DNA from: Clostridia bacterium
Lineage (GTDB): Bacteria > Bacillota > Clostridia > Lachnospirales > Lachnospiraceae
NCBI GenBank assembly: GCA_026000755.1
Contig: BNZC01000021.1
Coordinates: 1-24,107 of the forward strand
DNA length: 24,107 nucleotides
Reading direction: 5' to 3'
This document shows, in pieces, positions 164 through 8,068 of this stretch. The first letter of the stretch is position 1; every line of letters begins with the position of its first letter. The position numbers and the translations under genes are program-made. Under the pieces are notes generated by a model that was not told where the DNA came from, made no database searches, and saw only the letters and a program-made list of their open reading frames with translations.

Positions 164-192
164 TTGACAGGTTTATTAAAATCTGTTATAAC
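164..192 (+). promoter_or_regulatory. promoter of the rex-adhE-hydS operon
   Basis: The -35 box is TTGACA (164-169) and the -10 box is TATAAC (187-192), with 17 bp between them. This is close to the sigma-A consensus. The predicted transcription start, near 199, falls inside the palindrome at 191-226, so a protein bound there would block initiation. No other clear promoter was seen before the end of the phosphatase gene, so all five genes are probably transcribed from here. Confidence 0.8.
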
Positions 193-226
193 TATATTAT
201 CGATAAAATTTTATCGATAATATAGT
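191..226 (+). promoter_or_regulatory. 36-bp perfect palindrome, candidate Rex operator
   Basis: The two 18-base arms, 191-208 and 209-226, are exact reverse complements. Inside it are two copies of the self-complementary TTATCGATAA (197-206 and 211-220) separated by AATT. The central 18 bases (200-217) read TCGATAA-N4-TTATCGA, which matches the spacing of the known Rex site TTGTTAA-N4-TTAACAA and 5 of 7 bases per half-site. It overlaps the -10 box and start point, the usual place for a repressor site. Assignment to Rex is inference from spacing and from the adjacent rex gene. Confidence 0.75.
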
Positions 227-307
227 GCGGATATGGGTCAACGATTTATGGAATGGAATTTTCCAATGACACAACGATGATTCCGCTCTTACTTTCAGAC
301 ACAAAAA

Positions 308-958
308 ATGGAGGTGATTTCTATAGCAGTCAGTATAAGTGTACAGTTATACGCCCGCACATCAAAGTACCGTGAGTATCTCGAATCGTTGGGTGATGAA
401 GTAACGAACATTTCGGCGACGACAATCGCAAATGCACTTGACTATTATGACGTTTCCGTTCGCAAGGATTTATCCCAGATAAGCGGCAGCGGCAGACCTA
501 AAATGGGATACGAAAAAAAAGAACTCTTGCGTGACATAAAAAAGTTTCTCGGATACGACAAGCAAAACAGTGCCATTATCGTCGGAGTCGGACATTTGGG
601 AACAGCACTTCTTTCTTATCAAAATTTTGCAAATTGCGGGCTTGAAATAAGGGCAGGATTTGATGTTTCGCCGGATATTTTAGGAAAATCCGTAAACGGC
701 GTGATGATACTGGACACATCAAAACTTACGGATATGTGCAGGCGATTCGGCGTTACGATCGGAATAATCACCGTTCCGGCTGAAAAAGCGCAAACTGTAT
801 GTAATGAACTGATAAGCGGAGGTGTCAGCGGCATTTGGAATTTCGCTCCTGTTACACTTAAAGTTCCGGCGGGTGTAGCGGTAAAAAATGAGGATTTGGC
901 GGCATCGCTGTCAATGCTCACGGGTTCCATGAGTTTATTAAAGAAAACGGAGGAATAA
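308..958 (+). CDS. rex: redox-sensing transcriptional repressor Rex
   Basis: Rex binds DNA when NADH is low and releases it when NADH binds, so it derepresses fermentation genes such as adhE. The 216-residue length is typical. Residues 1-75 form the winged helix, with the conserved VRKDLS of the recognition helix followed by QISGSGRPKMGY instead of the common YFGxFG-type segment. Residues 88-216 form the Rossmann domain, with GVGHLGTAL as the nucleotide-binding loop. The annotated ATG at 308 has no Shine-Dalgarno sequence upstream; instead GGAGGTGA lies at 310-317, inside the first codons. A non-AUG start at ATA 323 is therefore possible, and the residue there aligns with Met of ISMAV in other clostridial Rex proteins. 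Four bases separate rex from adhE. Confidence 0.92.
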   Translation: MEVISIAVSISVQLYARTSKYREYLESLGDEVTNISATTIANALDYYDVSVRKDLSQISGSGRPKMGYEKKELLRDIKKFLGYDKQNSAIIVGVGHLGTALLSYQNFANCGLEIRAGFDVSPDILGKSVNGVMILDTSKLTDMCRRFGVTIGIITVPAEKAQTVCNELISGGVSGIWNFAPVTLKVPAGVAVKNEDLAASLSMLTGSMSLLKKTEE

Positions 959-962
959 GACA

Positions 963-3569
963 ATGGGAACAACAAATCATCTTGTGACGGACTCGCCTGA
1001 AAGGCTTACTGATCTGATCCGGAGCGTTCGCAAGGCACAGGAAAAATTTGCGGAGTATCCGCAGGAACAAGTCGATAAAATATTCAAAGCGGCGGCTCTT
1101 GCCGCATCCAAACATCGCATACCCCTTGCACAGGCGGCGGTTGCTGAAACGGGAATGGGAATTGTCGAGGACAAGGTGATTAAAAATCACTACGCTTCCG
1201 AGTACATCTATAACGCATATCGTGACACCAAAACTTGCGGTGTTATTGAAGAGGATACGAGCTTTGGTATACAGAAAATTGCTGTTCCGATTGGTCTTGT
1301 GGGTGCGGTTATACCTACAACAAATCCAACGTCAACGACAATTTTCAAAACCCTCATTGCTCTCAAAACTCGCAACGGAATTATTATTTCACCTCACCCC
1401 CGGGCAAAAAACTGCACGACGGATGCAGCTCGAATTGTTCTTGAAGCGGCGGTTGCGGCGGGTGCACCTGAGGGGATAATCGGTTGGATAGATGTCCCGA
1501 GTCTTGATATGACGAATATGCTTATGTGCGAAAGCGACATCATTTTAGCAACAGGCGGTCCGGGGATGGTGAAAGCGGCTTATTCCAGTGGAAAACCGGC
1601 TCTCGGCGTAGGTTCGGGGAATGTGCCTGCGGTAATCGATATTTCGGCAGATATTTCCCTTGCCGTAAATTCGATTATCCACTCCAAAACATTTGACAAT
1701 GGTGTGATTTGTGCTTCGGAACAGGCTGTTATCATTCCCGCTGAAATTTACGATACCGTTAAAAGTAAGTTTGCAAATCTCGGTTGTCATATTCTCTCTC
1801 TCGATGAAGCACAGGCTGTCCGTAAAACAATTGTTGTTAACGGTTCGCTTAATGCAAAAATCGTCGGGCAATCAGCATACAACATAGCAAAACTTGCGAA
1901 TGTGACTGTCCCCGAAAACACAAAAATCCTGATAGGGGAAGCGGAAAGTCCCGAACTGTCGGAGGAATTTGCACACGAGAAACTCTCTCCCGTGTTAGCT
2001 ATGTATAAGGCAACTGACTGGGAACATGCTTTATACCTGGCTGACCGATTAATCATCAACGGCGGACTTGGGCACACGGCAAGCCTCTATGTCAACACAG
2101 CAACCGAGAAAGAAAAAATTGCACAGTTTTCCGAAAAGATGAAAACTTGCCGTATCATCCTCAACACACCGTCTTCACACGGCGGCATTGGTGACCTTTA
2201 TAATTTCAAAATGGCTCCCTCCCTTACGCTTGGGTGCGGAACAATGGGCGGCAATTCCGTTTCGGAAAATGTCGGCGTAAAACACCTTATCAATATAAAA
2301 ACTGTCGCAAAAAGGAGTGAGAATATGCTGTGGGTAAGAGTTCCGGAAAAGGTATATATAAAACGCGGGGCTTTGCCTGTTGCGCTTGACGAGTTGAAAG
2401 GAAAGAAACGTGCTTTTGTCGTAACGGACGGATTTCTGTTTAAGAGCGGGTTCACGAAGCTAATCACAGACAAATTAGACGAAATCGGCGTTCAGCACAC
2501 AACTTTCGCAAATGTTGCACCCGACCCCACACTTGCCTGTGCACGAGAGGGAGCGGAACTTATGAAATCCTTCGAGCCTGACGTGATTATAGCTGTGGGC
2601 GGTGGTTCCCCAATGGATGCGGCAAAGATAATGTGGGTACTTTACGAACATCCCGAAGTCGATTTTGAAGATATGGCTATGCGTTTTTCCGACATACGCA
2701 AAAGGATTTACACTTTCCCGAAAATGGGTGAAAAGGCATATTTCATCGCCATTCCCACCACCAGCGGAACAGGGTCTGAAGTTACACCCTTTGCCGTCAT
2801 TACAGACGAAAAAAGCGGACTTAAATATCCCCTTGCGGACTATGAACTTCTCCCGAAAATGGCTATTATCGACCCAAATCTGCACGATAACGCACCGAAA
2901 GGTTTGACCTCCGCAAGCGGAATAGATGCACTTTCTCATGCACTGGAAGCCTATGCCTCAATGCTGGCAACCGATTATACCGACAGTCTTGCCCTCCGTG
3001 CAACCAAAATGATTTTTGAATATTTGCCCTCCGCTTACGAAAATGGTGCAGCTGACCCCGTTGCCCGGGAGAAAATGGCAAATGCGGCGACAATAGCGGG
3101 TATGGCGTTCGCCAATGCGTTTCTCGGCGTGTGCCACTCTATGGCACATAAATTAGGCAGTTTCCACCGTTTGCCCCACGGTATCGCAAACGCACTTATG
3201 CTTTCGGAAGTATTGCGTTTCAATGCGGAGGAAGTGCCGCCGAAAATGGGAACTTTCTCGCAATATGACCATCCGCACACGCTCCGCCGTTATGCTGAAA
3301 TCGCCGAATATCTCGGTTTAGCGGGTAAAAACGACGACGAGAAACTCGAATCTCTCATTGCCAAAATCGAGGAACTCAAAGAGGAAATCGGAATCAAAAA
3401 GACGATCGCAGACTACGGAATTGAGGAAAAAGACTTCCTTGACCGCCTTGACGATATGTCCGTTCAGGCATTTGACGACCAATGCACGGGGGCAAATCCT
3501 CGGTATCCGCTTATTGCCGAAATCAAACAAATGTATCTTAATGCGTACTACGGAGGTGTGAAAGCATGA
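963..3569 (+). CDS. adhE: bifunctional acetaldehyde/alcohol dehydrogenase AdhE
   Basis: AdhE reduces acetyl-CoA to acetaldehyde and then to ethanol, using two NADH, and usually assembles into cytoplasmic spirosomes. The 868 residues match the family size. Residues 1-440 form the CoA-acylating aldehyde dehydrogenase, with catalytic Cys250 in GVICASEQ. Residues 455-868 form the iron-dependent alcohol dehydrogenase, with GGGSPMDAAK for NAD binding and iron ligands Asp655, His659, His725 and His739, spaced as in the E. coli enzyme. GGAGG at 950-954 gives a good ribosome binding site for the ATG. The gene follows rex by 4 bases and overlaps the next start (ATGA), so expression is presumably controlled by the promoter and palindrome ahead of rex. 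All key residues are present. Confidence 0.97.
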   Translation: MGTTNHLVTDSPERLTDLIRSVRKAQEKFAEYPQEQVDKIFKAAALAASKHRIPLAQAAVAETGMGIVEDKVIKNHYASEYIYNAYRDTKTCGVIEEDTSFGIQKIAVPIGLVGAVIPTTNPTSTTIFKTLIALKTRNGIIISPHPRAKNCTTDAARIVLEAAVAAGAPEGIIGWIDVPSLDMTNMLMCESDIILATGGPGMVKAAYSSGKPALGVGSGNVPAVIDISADISLAVNSIIHSKTFDNGVICASEQAVIIPAEIYDTVKSKFANLGCHILSLDEAQAVRKTIVVNGSLNAKIVGQSAYNIAKLANVTVPENTKILIGEAESPELSEEFAHEKLSPVLAMYKATDWEHALYLADRLIINGGLGHTASLYVNTATEKEKIAQFSEKMKTCRIILNTPSSHGGIGDLYNFKMAPSLTLGCGTMGGNSVSENVGVKHLINIKTVAKRSENMLWVRVPEKVYIKRGALPVALDELKGKKRAFVVTDGFLFKSGFTKLITDKLDEIGVQHTTFANVAPDPTLACAREGAELMKSFEPDVIIAVGGGSPMDAAKIMWVLYEHPEVDFEDMAMRFSDIRKRIYTFPKMGEKAYFIAIPTTSGTGSEVTPFAVITDEKSGLKYPLADYELLPKMAIIDPNLHDNAPKGLTSASGIDALSHALEAYASMLATDYTDSLALRATKMIFEYLPSAYENGAADPVAREKMANAATIAGMAFANAFLGVCHSMAHKLGSFHRLPHGIANALMLSEVLRFNAEEVPPKMGTFSQYDHPHTLRRYAEIAEYLGLAGKNDDEKLESLIAKIEELKEEIGIKKTIADYGIEEKDFLDRLDDMSVQAFDDQCTGANPRYPLIAEIKQMYLNAYYGGVKA

Positions 3570-4315
3570 AATTGGATAAAATCATTGCGGTAAGAACCGC
3601 AAAAACGCTCTATCGCGATGGCAACTTGGCAATCAAGGTTTTCAACGAGGACTTCTCTAAATCCGATGTGCTTAATGAGGCACTCAATCAATCTCGTGTG
3701 GAGAATACCCTGCTGAATGTGCCGCAGATTCACGAAGTAGCGAAAATTGACGGCAAGTGGGCGATCGTTTCCGACTATATTGACGGCAAAACACTCACTC
3801 GTCTTATCGAAGAAGAGCCGTCTAAAAAATCTGCCCTTATCGCACAAATGGCGGACATTCAGCTTGAGATAAATCGTCAAAAGGTTGCCAAGTTGAACAA
3901 ACACAGCGAGAAAATGCGTGAAAAAATCGATGCTTGCGGTCTTAATGCTACCGTACGTTATGAACTTCTCACTCGACTGAGATCGCTCCGCAATGACGAG
4001 GTTCTTTGTCACGGCGATTTGACACTCTCAAACATCATCATTGATAACGACGGCAAGCCGTTTATAATCGACTGGTCACACGCCACACAGGGTTCGGCGG
4101 CGGCGGATACGGCAAGAGCGTACCTCCGTTTCCGGCTGGCAGGGTATATCGATGAGGCGGACGAATACCTCGATATTTACTGCGAAAAAGCCAATACGCC
4201 AAAACAGGTTATCCACAAATGGTTTCCCATTGTCGCCGCAACACAACTTGCAAAAGGCCTCGAAACCGAATATGAATTTTTGTCCGAATGGGCAAATGTT
4301 GTGGAGTATGAATAA
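3566..4315 (+). CDS. APH/protein-kinase-fold phosphotransferase, probable partner of the HydS-phosphatase module
   Basis: This 249-residue protein has the kinase-like fold seen in aminoglycoside phosphotransferases, choline kinases and small atypical protein kinases. Visible motifs are the ATP-binding lysine Lys24 in LAIKVF, a candidate paired glutamate Glu38, the catalytic loop HGDLTLSN (His149, Asp151, Asn156) and the metal-binding Asp169 in FIIDWSHA. All catalytic positions are kept, so it is probably active. Its start overlaps the adhE stop (ATGA), which suggests translational coupling. Annotation tools would probably call it aminoglycoside or choline phosphotransferase, but its place between adhE and a hydrogenase-type sensor with a phosphatase suggests a signalling kinase. 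The substrate cannot be read from the sequence. Confidence 0.7.
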   Translation: MKLDKIIAVRTAKTLYRDGNLAIKVFNEDFSKSDVLNEALNQSRVENTLLNVPQIHEVAKIDGKWAIVSDYIDGKTLTRLIEEEPSKKSALIAQMADIQLEINRQKVAKLNKHSEKMREKIDACGLNATVRYELLTRLRSLRNDEVLCHGDLTLSNIIIDNDGKPFIIDWSHATQGSAAADTARAYLRFRLAGYIDEADEYLDIYCEKANTPKQVIHKWFPIVAATQLAKGLETEYEFLSEWANVVEYE

Positions 4316-4360
4316 AAAGAGGAGCGATAGTCGCTAAGCTATCATAGGGAGGAAATGCGT

Positions 4361-6028
4361 ATGCCAAGTTTCTATGAATCGCAAAAATCGAATTGTAAAA
4401 ACTGTTATAAGTGCATACGGCACTGCCCTGTGAAAGCAATTCGATTTTCAGGTGAACGTGCCACACTTGATGACGAAAACTGTGTTTTGTGCGGAAAATG
4501 CTTTGTCATTTGCCCGCAAAATGTCAGAAAAATCATAAGCACGCGAGAGCAAATTATCACGCTTTTCGGTGAACGTGTTCCCGTTTACGCCACGGTTGCA
4601 CCGTCTTTCATAGCGAACTTTGGCGGAGCGGGGATTCGTCAACTTGAAGACGGACTGAAAAAACTCGGCTTTGCAGGGGCAGAGGAAACAGCGAAAGGAG
4701 CTGCTGCCGTCAAGGATGAATATGAGCGAATATTGAAAGAAGAAGATCCTGATGTGCTTATATCCACTTGCTGTAACAGCGTAAATTTACTGGTGCAAAA
4801 ATATTACCCGTCACTTGTGAAATATCTCGCTCCCGTGCTTTCTCCAATGCAAGCCAACGGGGCGGACATAAAGAAACGTAACCCGAAGGCAAAGGTGGTG
4901 TTTATCGGACCGTGCATTTCTAAAATGGAAGAGGCAGCAAGATATGAGGGATTTGTCGATGCCGTTATGACTTTTGCGGAAATTACGGAATGGTTTGCGG
5001 AAAAGAAAATCTTTCTTTCCAATGAAAGCGATACCAAACAAAACAGTCGTGCCCGATTTTTTCCGACGACAGGCGGAATCATCAAGACAATGACTGAAAA
5101 AACGCCAAAATACAAGTATATGGCGGTTGACGGACTTGAAAACTGCATTAGTGTACTTAACGATTTATCACAAGGCATGGTTAAAAAATGTTTTATAGAG
5201 ATGTCGGCTTGCATCGGCAGTTGCGTAGGCGGTCCGGCTTGCACGTCCAAAAGCATATTTACGGGGTTTCATTCTGTGGAGAATTACACAGGTGAAAAAG
5301 CTTTTGATGTGAATTATGATTTCCTTACACACAGCAAAACATTTGATTTGCCGTCCAAATCAAGCGAATTATACAGCGAAAAAGACATAGAGGAGATTTT
5401 ACGGTGTATCGGAAAAACTTCCCCCCAAGATATGTTAAACTGCGGCACTTGCGGATACGAAACCTGCCGCGATAAAGCAATTGCCGTACTCCAAGGCAAA
5501 GCGGATTTAACAATGTGTCTTCCGTTTCTGAAAGAAAAAGCCGAGAAAACAAACTCTCTTGTCCTGCAAAACTCTCCTAACGGAATTATCGTGCTTAACA
5601 GCGAAATGGAAGTACAGCAAATAAACCGTGCCGCACTTGATATTCTGCGCCTTCATAGCGAGAATGATATTTTGGGTGATAAAATCGTCCGGGTATTAAA
5701 TCCCGTTCCGTTTATATGTACCCGAGATGAAAAGCGAAATATATATGGGCAAAAGGTGCAGCTGACCGAATATGATAAGTTTGTTTATCAAACAATCGTT
5801 TACGACTCCGTATACAATATGCTTATCTGTATTATGCAGGATATTACGGAACAGGAAAATTTACGTGAAAAACAAAAAAATGCAAGAGAGCAGACACTTG
5901 AAACCACGGATGAAGTGATAAAAAAACAAATGCGTATCGTGCAGGAGATCGCCTCACTTCTCGGTGAAACCACTGCCGAAACAAAAATCGCACTGACCAA
6001 GTTACAGGAGGTTGTGCGAAATGAATAA
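4361..6028 (+). CDS. hydS: HydS-type sensory [FeFe]-hydrogenase with PAS domain
   Basis: This is a putative H2 or redox sensor rather than a catabolic hydrogenase. In order it has a two-cluster ferredoxin domain (Cys 12, 15, 18, 22 and 41, 44, 47, 51), an H-cluster domain (about 75-325), an FeS domain (Cys 361, 364, 369, 386, spaced CX2CX4CX16C), a PAS domain (about 390-488) and a coiled-coil tail. The H-cluster loops keep the ligand cysteines, STCCNS (137-138), GPCISKMEE (185) and SACIGSC (284, 288), but differ from the TSCCPxW and MPC motifs of active HydA. There is no kinase domain, so output probably passes through the coiled coil to the next gene product. ATG 4361 is preferred: GGGAGG at 4347-4352 lies 8 bases upstream but only 2 bases from the ATG at 4355. 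Confidence 0.88.
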   Translation: MPSFYESQKSNCKNCYKCIRHCPVKAIRFSGERATLDDENCVLCGKCFVICPQNVRKIISTREQIITLFGERVPVYATVAPSFIANFGGAGIRQLEDGLKKLGFAGAEETAKGAAAVKDEYERILKEEDPDVLISTCCNSVNLLVQKYYPSLVKYLAPVLSPMQANGADIKKRNPKAKVVFIGPCISKMEEAARYEGFVDAVMTFAEITEWFAEKKIFLSNESDTKQNSRARFFPTTGGIIKTMTEKTPKYKYMAVDGLENCISVLNDLSQGMVKKCFIEMSACIGSCVGGPACTSKSIFTGFHSVENYTGEKAFDVNYDFLTHSKTFDLPSKSSELYSEKDIEEILRCIGKTSPQDMLNCGTCGYETCRDKAIAVLQGKADLTMCLPFLKEKAEKTNSLVLQNSPNGIIVLNSEMEVQQINRAALDILRLHSENDILGDKIVRVLNPVPFICTRDEKRNIYGQKVQLTEYDKFVYQTIVYDSVYNMLICIMQDITEQENLREKQKNAREQTLETTDEVIKKQMRIVQEIASLLGETTAETKIALTKLQEVVRNE

Positions 6029-7196
6029 ACTGTGTGCCGATATAGGCTATATGAGCATAAATCACATTGGGGAAGAACTTTGCGGAGATACTGTAAATAT
6101 CGTAACCGACAGCGATGGCAATTCGGTCATCGTTTTGGCTGATGGAATGGGCAGCGGCGTGAAAGCGTGTATCCTGTCCACCCTTACCGCAAAAATTTTA
6201 TCCACTATGCTGAATGCAGGATTGCCTCTTAAAAATTGTGTGGAAACAATTGTTGAAACTTTGCCTGTTTGTTCTGTTCGCGGGGTTGCGTATTCTACCT
6301 TTACGGTCATAAAAATCTTTGACGGCGAATTTGCGGAAATCTATCAGTATGAAAATCCGAAAGTCATTTTATTCAGAAATGGACATAACATAGACTATCC
6401 TACCGTTGAAATAACATACAGTCAACGGAAAGTTTTGCAAACGCACATTAAATTAGAAGAAAATGACGTAATTATAGCAATGAGCGACGGCTGTCCCTAT
6501 GCGGGAATGGGTACGGCGTTTAACTGGGGTTGGAAGCGAGAGGATATTATTGCGTATATTGAACCTCTGACCATTCCCGGTGCGTTTAACGCAAAGGCGT
6601 TGTCGAAAATTTTGATTGACGAGGTAAATGCAAAATACGAGCTTGAACCGGGCGACGATGCAACCGTTTGTACGGTTCGTATGCAAAAACGCACTGCCTC
6701 AAATATTCTTTTCGGTCCTCCCTCCAATAAATTTGACGGAAACAGAATGATGTCGCTGTTCTTTTCAAAAGTAGGAAAACATATCATCTGCGGCGGTACA
6801 ACATCAACAATTGCGGCGGAATATTTGGGAAAAAGCGTGATCCCTACCCTTGATTTTTACGACAACAAAATACCGCCGATTGCGAAAATAGACGGTGTTG
6901 ATTTGGTAACCGAAGGTGTGATTACCATGAACCGCGTGATCGAATACGCCAAGGACTATGTGAATGAAAACGAATTGTACCATATTTGGAGCGTGGGGCG
7001 TGATGGTGCTTCCCTTATAAGCCGTATCCTTTTTGAAGAAGCCACCGACATCAATTTTTACGTTGGCAGGGCTGTAAATCCCGCTCATCAAACCCCGGAT
7101 TTGCCGATAACTTTCAATATAAAAATGCAGCTCGTCAAAGAACTCGAGAAGTATCTTCTTAAGATGGGCAAATATATTAGGGTTTCCTATTTCTAA
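6021..7196 (+). CDS. SpoIIE/PP2C-type serine phosphatase with an uncharacterised C-terminal domain
   Basis: The protein has 391 residues. The first 225 form a PP2C/SpoIIE phosphatase domain with metal-binding aspartates in LADGMGSG (Asp41), AMSDG (Asp156) and GDDATV (212-213). Residues 230-391 form a second domain containing CGGTTS (257-262), which I cannot assign; similar tails are seen, as far as I recall, on phosphatases beside HydS-type hydrogenases. AGGAGG at 6006-6011 places the start at ATG 6021, and the start overlaps the hydS stop by 8 bases, indicating coupled translation. Phosphatases of this class are often switched by PAS or coiled-coil partners, so HydS is the natural regulator and the kinase-fold protein upstream the natural antagonist. 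Substrate unknown; no terminator is obvious after the stop. Confidence 0.88.
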   Translation: MNKLCADIGYMSINHIGEELCGDTVNIVTDSDGNSVIVLADGMGSGVKACILSTLTAKILSTMLNAGLPLKNCVETIVETLPVCSVRGVAYSTFTVIKIFDGEFAEIYQYENPKVILFRNGHNIDYPTVEITYSQRKVLQTHIKLEENDVIIAMSDGCPYAGMGTAFNWGWKREDIIAYIEPLTIPGAFNAKALSKILIDEVNAKYELEPGDDATVCTVRMQKRTASNILFGPPSNKFDGNRMMSLFFSKVGKHIICGGTTSTIAAEYLGKSVIPTLDFYDNKIPPIAKIDGVDLVTEGVITMNRVIEYAKDYVNENELYHIWSVGRDGASLISRILFEEATDINFYVGRAVNPAHQTPDLPITFNIKMQLVKELEKYLLKMGKYIRVSYF

Positions 7197-7370: not shown

Positions 7371-7766
7371 ATGACAAATAGAGAGTTACTGGAATACTGG
7401 GTTGAAAGTTCAGATAATGATTATACAACAATGCAACATTTATATAGCACACAAGATTATAATTGGGCATTATTTTTGGGACATTTAGTAATTGAAAAAT
7501 TATTAAAAGGATTATATGCCAGAAAAAATGAAGAACAACCTCATGCCCCTAAAATACATAACTTGCTAATACTTGCCGAACGGTGTGATTTGGAACTATC
7601 ACAAGAACTACGGGACGAACTATCTTTAATAACACATTTTAACATGAACGCTAGGTACGAAGACTATAAATTGAATTTTTATAAGAAAGCAACAAGAGAA
7701 TATGCGGACATTCATATCAATAAAATTGAGGAGATACGAGGATGGTTGAAAGCAAAATCAATATAG
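7371..7766 (+). CDS. HEPN-domain protein (likely toxin of a HEPN/MNT pair)
   Basis: This 131-residue, mostly helical protein matches the HEPN family that pairs with minimal nucleotidyltransferases. In studied systems the HEPN partner is an RNase toxin neutralised by AMP transfer from its MNT partner. Family features are the N-terminal ...WALFLGHLVIEKLLKGL helix and the ARYEDY motif near residue 104. The catalytic RX4-6H motif of nuclease HEPN proteins is not visible, so it may act differently or be inactive. The frame overlaps the next gene by 25 bases, the usual coupling for toxin-antitoxin pairs. Its low GC content differs from the adhE operon before it and suggests separate acquisition. 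Confidence 0.8.
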   Translation: MTNRELLEYWVESSDNDYTTMQHLYSTQDYNWALFLGHLVIEKLLKGLYARKNEEQPHAPKIHNLLILAERCDLELSQELRDELSLITHFNMNARYEDYKLNFYKKATREYADIHINKIEEIRGWLKAKSI

Positions 7767-8068
7767 AAATATTACAATCATTAGAAACTTATATACGTAA
7801 AATCAGTCTGTATTATCGTATAGACTCTGTTGTTTTATTTGGTTCATATGCGCAAGGGACAAACCACCAAGATAGTGATATAGATGTTGCAGTTATTTCA
7901 AAAGACATTACCGACACCATTGATGACGGTGCAAAACTCATGAGCTTAACTTGGGGTATAGACACGCGAATAGAGCCTCATGCCATAAATACAGAAGATT
8001 TTAATATCGGAGATACACCATTTATTGATGAAATCATAAAAACTGGTGTTGAACTTTATGCCGCTTAA
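7742..8068 (+). CDS. MNT-domain nucleotidyltransferase (likely antitoxin)
   Basis: This 108-residue minimal nucleotidyltransferase has the GSX10DXD signature: GSYAQG followed by SDIDVAV (around residues 36-52). In the characterised MntA/HepT type VII system the MNT protein transfers AMP groups onto the HEPN toxin to silence it. The start lies inside the HEPN gene and has GAGGAG about 9 bases upstream, so the two proteins are made together. A similar fold occurs in kanamycin nucleotidyltransferases, but the size and the HEPN neighbour favour the antitoxin role. No clear terminator follows; 8069-8225 holds nothing I can assign. Confidence 0.83.
   Translation: MVESKINIEILQSLETYIRKISLYYRIDSVVLFGSYAQGTNHQDSDIDVAVISKDITDTIDDGAKLMSLTWGIDTRIEPHAINTEDFNIGDTPFIDEIIKTGVELYAA

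Follow-up and report, generated by a model that had tools for sequence, protein, structure and literature searches.

The 24,107-nucleotide contig BNZC01000021.1 of a Clostridia bacterium (positions 1 to 24,107, here called the window; it is contig C21 of a 1.55 Mb assembly in 129 contigs that is 68% complete) carries a run of five genes that probably forms an ethanol operon derepressed by NADH. It appears to be equipped with a private pair of Rex repressor and operator and with a further, probable layer of control in which a phosphatase responds to hydrogen (H2) and acts on the dehydrogenase AdhE or on its regulation. The locus represents a trimmed form of the HydS ethanol operon of Ruminococcus albus and Acetivibrio, lacking the ferredoxin-like genes and the hydrogenase. 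All five genes lie on the forward strand at 308-7196: rex (308..958), encoding a redox-sensing repressor that is a paralogue with the altered DNA-binding segment VRKDLSQISGSGRPKMGY; adhE (963..3569), whose product, a bifunctional acetaldehyde-CoA/alcohol dehydrogenase, matches NF010378 at 1369.6 bits (cut-off 951); the gene of an APH-fold kinase of an adhE-linked family (3566..4315); hydS (4355..6028, with ATG 4361 as an alternative start); and the gene of a SpoIIE/PP2C phosphatase with a C-terminal domain (6021..7196). These assignments are based on open reading frames (ORFs) and family or domain models, supplemented by alignments for rex, hydS and the phosphatase and by homologue comparison for the kinase. 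A gap of 4 bases separates rex from adhE, adhE and the kinase gene overlap by 4 bases, the kinase-hydS gap is 39 or 45 bases depending on the choice of the hydS start codon, and hydS overlaps the phosphatase gene by 8 bases. A sigma-A type promoter, read directly in the DNA, precedes them on the same strand (164..192, with TTGACA at 164-169, a 17-base spacer and TATAAC at 187-192); it was missed by the consensus promoter scanner, which requires T as the sixth base of the second hexamer. ORFs and DNA reading confirmed the sequence-only reading on this point, namely five same-strand genes with these gaps and overlaps behind a single promoter.

That the dedicated Rex paralogue would repress its own operon through the TATCGATA palindrome is well supported by comparison. 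A perfect palindrome of 36 bases (191..226, no strand), the predicted operator of the operon Rex, lies on and after the end of the -10 hexamer, and its core is TCGATAA-AATT-TTATCGA at 200-217. Upstream regions of 26 rex-led and 66 rex-less adhE-kinase units were compared, with the window excluded and leaders shorter than 150 bases dropped. The octamer that best separated the two sets, with no motif preset, was TATCGATA, present in 22 of the rex-led leaders and in two of the rex-less ones. The canonical box TTGTTAA-N4-TTAACAA (at least 12 of 14 positions; 0.8-0.9% of shuffles) behaved in the opposite way, with 5/26 against 35/66 (rex-less examples are L097, L099 and L177). The window leader scores 14/14 for TCGATAA-N4-TTATCGA and at best 10/14 for the canonical Rex box. 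A longer operator consensus was found in 22/26 rex-led and 7/67 rex-less leaders, and the window score was reached in 0/200 shuffles; this consensus was derived from the window and Acetivibrio, which does not apply to the octamer count. Adjacent to this, adhE-kinase units without their own rex seem, judged from their boxes, to be under the global Rex. Of the 92 adhE-kinase units whose leader could be used, 66 are not preceded by rex, which weakens the earlier suggestion that Rex could be the target of the kinase.

The operon Rex belongs to the Rex family (229.4 bits to NF003994, cut-off 130) and keeps the Rossmann GxGxxG motif as GVGHLG. The non-canonical box at its own promoter bears on its specificity and not on its family membership. 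With the canonical clostridial Rex regulon (box TTGTTAANNNNTTAACAA) the window operon shares the repressor family and the 18-base layout, while the half-site is TCGATAA instead of TTGTTAA and the recognition/wing segment is changed. In this segment the operon Rex proteins read VQVRKDLxxVSGxGKPKxGY or a variant (28 rows), and the corresponding stretch of housekeeping Rex is ASQIRQDLNxFGxFGQQGYGY or similar (5 rows). Eight genomes were searched for both types: the two occur side by side, with a single copy of each, in R. albus 8 and in A. mesophilus, only the operon type was seen in the genome of the window, G050 and G328, and only the housekeeping type in G085, G046 and G202. We infer that the operon encodes its own repressor with a changed specificity matched to the predicted TCGATAA-type operator. 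A single exact copy of the 18-base core is present in the genome (68% complete), which fits a local regulator. A wider regulon is not claimed, as the core with up to two mismatches was found at 8 places and the reversed-pattern control at 6. The housekeeping Rex of C. thermocellum, Rex_2471, binds the canonical box, and no DNA motif is reported for its paralogue Rex_1799 in the available excerpts of that study (PMC8457756).

Two side observations concern the region around rex. Its start is uncertain, because a Shine-Dalgarno-like GGAGGTGA (310-317) overlaps the annotated first ATG; an in-frame ATA is found at 323. In 27 of 93 leaders, that of R. albus 8 among them (L174:4469-5485; another example is L151:4514-5434), the gene of a LysR-type regulator (about 306 residues) stands 5' of rex-adhE or adhE-kinase; the window contig begins 307 bases before rex. 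LysR was rejected as the owner of the palindrome because a consensus score of at least 16 tracks rex and not LysR alone: it was found in 12/14 leaders with rex only, 10/12 with rex and LysR, 3/15 with LysR only and 4/52 with neither.

The gene order recurs in other genomes, so it is not due to chance. The proposed check for a conserved rex-adhE-APH-hydS-PP2C order in other Clostridia was run, and the same five-gene core was found in R. albus 8 (L174), A. mesophilus (L167), A. straminisolvens (L181) and others. R. albus 8 has eight genes, rex-adhE-kinase-Fdx-Fdx-hydS-PP2C-hydA2 (Fdx, ferredoxin-like gene), with order, strand and a TATCGATA-type leader in common with the window, which lacks the two ferredoxin-like genes before hydS and the hydA2 after the phosphatase gene. 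The two Acetivibrio loci read rex-adhE-kinase-Fdx-hydS-PP2C-hydC-hydB-hydA-Fdx, several A. straminisolvens genes being in pieces in the ORF calls. In Acetivibrio (Clostridium) thermocellus the corresponding operon (Cthe_0422-0432) has, like that of A. mesophilus and the window, rex, adhE, an 'aminoglycoside phosphotransferase', a hydS-like Fe-S protein and a SpoIIE-like phosphatase; it also carries a small gene and continues into the hydCBA hydrogenase, whereas the window operon stops at the phosphatase. Rex_1799 is the second Rex paralogue of A. thermocellus, and Cthe_0422-0432 are reported to be co-regulated after furfural. The hfsABCD genes of Thermoanaerobacterium saccharolyticum also place a HydS-like protein (HfsB) next to a serine-phosphatase-like protein (HfsC), as in the window, but they form a group of four with the HydA2-like HfsD and without adhE, rex or kinase; adhE (Tsac_0416) lies away from hfs (Tsac_1550).

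The frequency of the complete operon was estimated from the named genomes. At least 590 relatives of the kinase were found there and the best 80, closest to the kinase of the window, were kept; 68 of these have at least 3 kb of sequence downstream. HydS is present in 51 of the 68, PP2C in 51, a ferredoxin-like gene in 52 (two in 37), hydA2 in 44 and hydB in 2, with the near-duplicate loci L151/L153, L196/L199 and L197/L210 left in. In the loci sampled from the taxonomic order HydS is much rarer downstream of the kinase (2/38 versus 51/68). Among the 51 HydS loci hydA2 or hydB was not seen in six, some of which are cut by contig ends. A 53-residue HydS match in L110 was spurious and was excluded from the final linkage count on the kinase tree.

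The hydS product has the domains of a sensor: ferredoxin-like Fe-S domains, an H-cluster domain (Fe_hyd_lg_C, PF02906, 161.5 bits), an additional FeS domain (PF04060), a PAS domain (PAS_8 at 23.4 bits, cut-off 21.8) and a conserved C-terminal segment. Full-length or near-full-length relatives were found at 16 loci in 15 other genomes (60 were searched besides that of the window). In an alignment of 16 rows, which includes the window, leaves out the split L052 and has its register set against hydrogenases in the PDB, the H-cluster cysteines C140, C187, C286 and C290 and the accessory Fe-S cysteines are invariant, so that those of the ferredoxin-like clusters, the H-cluster and the extra FeS domain are all kept (16/16 rows). 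Two replacements of the sensory type are present, G185 for M353 of CpI and S284 for M497; C299 of CpI is kept as C139. The sensory enzyme of T. maritima likewise replaces M353 and M497, but differs from the window in the C299 comparison (PMC10055695). The window protein would thus work like a HydS, with the group C class label left open. The longest near-invariant stretch of the alignment is the C-terminal segment around QEIASLLGETTAETK, which may communicate with the phosphatase. A PP2C gene is next to hydS on the same strand at all 16 loci (about 1 kb apart in L047), and a small ferredoxin-like gene (CIGSxCHLKGx, at least 70 residues) directly precedes hydS at 10 of them.

The phosphatase matches SpoIIE (PF07228) at 45.5 bits (cut-off 25). 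D41, D156, D212 and D213, which we take to be the metal-binding aspartates, are invariant in 17/17 rows; the DGxGSG and SDG motifs are kept in all 17 and GDD in all but one (SDD). The list of 50 Foldseek matches was filled by phosphatases. The conserved C-terminal domain of about 160 residues (6702-7196), with GGTT...DGVDLVTEGV motifs, gave one weak PDB match, a phosphoheptose isomerase (E 0.0061).

The genome of the window encodes hydE, hydF and hydG for maturation and a HydABC-type hydrogenase, whose HydA exceeds the cut-off for the NADH-dependent group A6. The H-cluster can therefore be assembled, and one expects H2 to be formed in an NADH-linked reaction. Besides hydS, a single other Fe_hyd_lg_C gene was found in this 68% complete assembly. 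The window operon itself contains no output hydrogenase (hydA2 or hydCBA), in whose place a HEPN/nucleotidyltransferase pair is found, and no ferredoxin-like gene of about 80 residues precedes hydS, where the interval to the kinase gene is just 39-45 bases. A search for ferredoxin-like genes in the same incomplete genome gave a best match of E 1.1e-4, within a NuoE-like hydC. Without ferredoxin-like genes and a co-transcribed hydrogenase the window locus is a variant rather than a member of the R. albus-type HydS ethanol operon, and AdhE is its only metabolic output.

The kinase is of the APH/choline-kinase fold (APH, PF01636, 52 bits, cut-off 23.2) and retains K24, D151, N156 and D169. Judged from gene linkage, it travels with adhE, and the adhE-linked kinase family appears to be independent of HydS. 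A search of 295 genomes of the order gave matches with E of 1e-12 or lower in 67 and of 3.2e-48 or lower in 48, that of the window included. In the 47 loci of the latter besides the window adhE is directly upstream in 41, a contig end intervenes in 2 and adhE is not there in 4; for the best 80 of the at least 590 named loci these numbers are 72, 4 and 4. The combined set of 127 loci, including the window, has adhE upstream in 113 and not in 8, with 6 undecidable (113/121 informative loci). HydS, PP2C or a ferredoxin-like gene follows in 66 and not in 55, with 6 undecidable, and in 48 of the 127 the kinase gene follows adhE with none of these genes after it. Weaker APH paralogues served as a control: 20 of 27 loci were read, including G197 (E 1.8e-45), and AdhE adjoined in 0/20; a weak match in L274 (24% over 169 residues) was not counted. 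On the kinase tree, from which L131 (kinase shorter than 230 residues) was dropped, adhE linkage requires at least 5 changes (at least 6 with shuffled labels), a low number that is mostly due to the rarity of exceptions. HydS linkage requires at least 14 (shuffled at least 33), so the two modules have repeatedly come together or separated. Three genomes of the genus g66 (L125:6234-8150, L126 and L128) have a 638-codon gene instead of adhE in front of the kinase gene; in L125, the one that was read, this gene is presumably a glycogen branching enzyme.

These data bear on a trivial explanation, that the five genes are co-transcribed for reasons of expression and share no pathway. The existence of kinase-adhE and hydS-PP2C as separate units in other genomes would agree with it. 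Against this, the junction recurs: 66 of the 121 decidable loci have HydS, PP2C or a ferredoxin-like gene after the kinase gene. We regard plain co-location as very improbable.

In view of the above, control of the operon can be considered in two layers. In the first, the operon Rex would bind the TATCGATA palindrome on and after its own -10 hexamer and shut the operon. A rise in NADH, for example when high H2 stalls the NADH-using hydrogenase HydABC, would release Rex, after which adhE is made. In the second, HydS would detect H2 at its H-cluster and, by way of its PAS domain and its C-terminal segment, control the partner PP2C. Together with the adhE-coupled kinase, the phosphatase would then determine the state of AdhE itself, or that of a factor or ligand that acts on it, and ethanol formation would track H2. 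As to the sign, HydS could hold the phosphatase back when H2 is absent; in the presence of H2, or when HydS is lost, the phosphatase would become active and increase AdhE output, with the kinase working in the opposite direction.

Work on related systems lends this scheme some weight. The R. albus 7 cluster described by Greening et al. 2019 has eight genes, for a ferredoxin-only hydrogenase, an alcohol/aldehyde dehydrogenase and regulatory proteins including a sensory hydrogenase and a phosphatase; when an H2 consumer was present in co-culture, its expression fell 111-fold, and the authors proposed that the sensory hydrogenase senses H2 directly (PMC6776011). In Thermoanaerobacterium, deletion of hfsA or hfsB increased ethanol about 1.8-fold. 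Deletion of the hydS homologue hfsB raised NADH-linked alcohol dehydrogenase (NADH-ADH) but not aldehyde dehydrogenase (NADH-ALDH) activity, which in the view of the authors hints at post-transcriptional control (PMC5707799). According to the same paper hfsB deletion also raised ethanol in C. thermocellum and three other species, and the high-ethanol state required wild-type hfsC and hfsD. The H2-sensing part of the phospho-switch put forward in the sequence-only reading is supported by the intact H-cluster ligands, by hydE, hydF and hydG and, as far as the excerpts go, by the R. albus 7 and hfsB data; an obligatory kinase-phosphatase pair and a protein-kinase role are not.

The two-layer scheme competes with control of the response to H2 and NADH by transcription alone, through Rex, with HydS, kinase and phosphatase as a minor or decaying layer at this locus. 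The position of the palindrome on the promoter and the absence of the ferredoxin-like and hydrogenase genes that most of the closest relatives have would fit such control, and Rex alone could account for the fall in expression of the R. albus cluster at low H2. It is less easily reconciled with the intact ligands and catalytic residues and open frames of HydS, PP2C and kinase. The shift in NADH-ADH without NADH-ALDH after hfsB deletion in Thermoanaerobacterium, where rex expression rose with ethanol against expectation (PMC5707799), also speaks against it. We consider control by Rex alone to be somewhat unlikely.

Several observations nevertheless weigh against a two-layer switch. For the Rex layer, the TATCGATA octamer is missing from four rex-led leaders and the canonical box is present in five, and the leaders and loci are related by descent, some being near-duplicates, so that the counts are not independent and only describe. 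For the sensor, among the 51 HydS loci the ferredoxin-like partner is missing in just one besides the window (L202), and with an absence so rare HydS function in the window may be impaired. Half of the kinase genomes (24/48) show no HydS-type PP2C at E 1e-15, some assemblies being incomplete, and in family f5 this holds for 16 of 17; the kinase cannot always depend on that phosphatase. An obligatory pair of writer and eraser, as first envisaged, is unlikely in view of these genomes and of the 48 loci without HydS, PP2C or ferredoxin-like genes. The nearest fold neighbours of the kinase are APH and choline kinases, which are small-molecule phosphotransferases, leaving protein phosphorylation unproven, and the Pkinase score of 23.4 bits is under the cut-off of 31.7 for a Hanks-type Ser/Thr kinase, which further weakens the original idea of a protein kinase. 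In AdhE no Ser/Thr was found that marks the kinase-linked copies beyond what descent explains (93 linked versus 27 unlinked copies). In the literature searched, partly available as excerpts, no binding, kinase or phosphatase assay of operon-type proteins was found. Finally, in an hfsABCD deletion of T. thermosaccharolyticum hfsD by itself, in the absence of hfsABC, raises ethanol when hydAB and nfnAB are present (PMC11837493). The authors explain the hfsD effect by H2 cycling and not by signalling, and the result speaks against the proposed sign.

The possible phosphorylation sites in AdhE were inspected in the comparison just mentioned, in which 15 of the 27 unlinked copies are near and two of an initial 29 (shorter than 840 residues) were dropped. 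Linked AdhE is enriched in T289 and S374, but the closest kinase-less copies of family f11 (L229 and L231-L233) keep both, as does L230, so the enrichment follows descent. Within f11 (14 linked versus 4 unlinked) many positions differ, including a few Ser/Thr such as T447 and T221 (V in the window); the unlinked copies there are of another AdhE branch, with at most 77% identity to the linked ones. T447 fell outside the 15 strongest Ser/Thr gains once all 15 near unlinked copies were used. The literature search returned nothing on AdhE phosphorylation, which does not prove its absence: the accessible parts of PMC12096837 contain no kinase or phosphorylation terms and those of PMC13277313 no phosphorylation. 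No work on the substrate of the adhE-linked kinase family was found in the literature searches either.

It is quite possible that the kinase phosphorylates a small molecule instead of a protein, such as a metabolite, a cofactor or a damaged adduct of acetaldehyde or ethanol metabolism. The pairing with adhE would then reflect a metabolic step or repair, and HydS-PP2C would be a separate signalling unit sharing the transcript. The fold agrees with this, but a shared fold does not reveal the substrate, and protein kinases rank third and fourth among the PDB sequence matches (E 6e-4, 34 residues). Moreover, four of the 80 named loci (L148, L170, L178 and L206) have the kinase before a ferredoxin-like gene or hydS without adhE, which ties the kinase to the sensor too. 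A broader scheme goes in the opposite direction, and we put it forward tentatively, as rather unlikely. Here the APH-fold kinase family would act on AdhE, or on an effector bound to it, across many Clostridia; HydS lineages would have added a reversing, H2-sensing phosphatase, and a private pair of Rex and operator would have taken transcription over from the global Rex. If so, the window holds the smallest version of the switch among the loci compared.

Returning to the two-layer scheme, the missing ferredoxin-like gene could mean that the window operon is locked towards ethanol, provided that the gene is the counterpart of hfsA. This is conceivable because hfsA deletion also raised ethanol. 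A trimmed operon, without a co-transcribed hydrogenase, would separate sensing from H2 production.

The earlier interpretation of the locus is partly supported and mostly had been proposed already for R. albus. Neither the gene arrangement, seen in R. albus 8 and Acetivibrio, nor the idea of H2 sensing can be called new; Zheng et al. 2014 proposed H2-HydS-PAS-kinase signalling in R. albus, according to Eminoglu et al. 2017 (PMC5707799). New, as far as the literature searches go, are the Rex paralogue/operator switch, the HydS-independent adhE-linked kinase family and the trimmed operon; the sequence-only reading mentioned neither the operator palindrome nor the absence of the ferredoxin-like and hydrogenase genes. 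The way in which H2 pressure moves fermenters between acetate and ethanol formation is a classic open problem, both in interspecies H2 transfer and for cellulosic ethanol strains. The comparison yields two testable points, the DNA site of the second clostridial Rex and the adhE-linked kinase family.

Outside the system, the HEPN and nucleotidyltransferase (MNT) genes (7371..8068, forward strand), recognized from their ORFs and domain models, lie immediately 3' of the operon in a toxin-antitoxin-like arrangement; hydA2 or hydCBA occupies this position in 46 of the 68 named loci.

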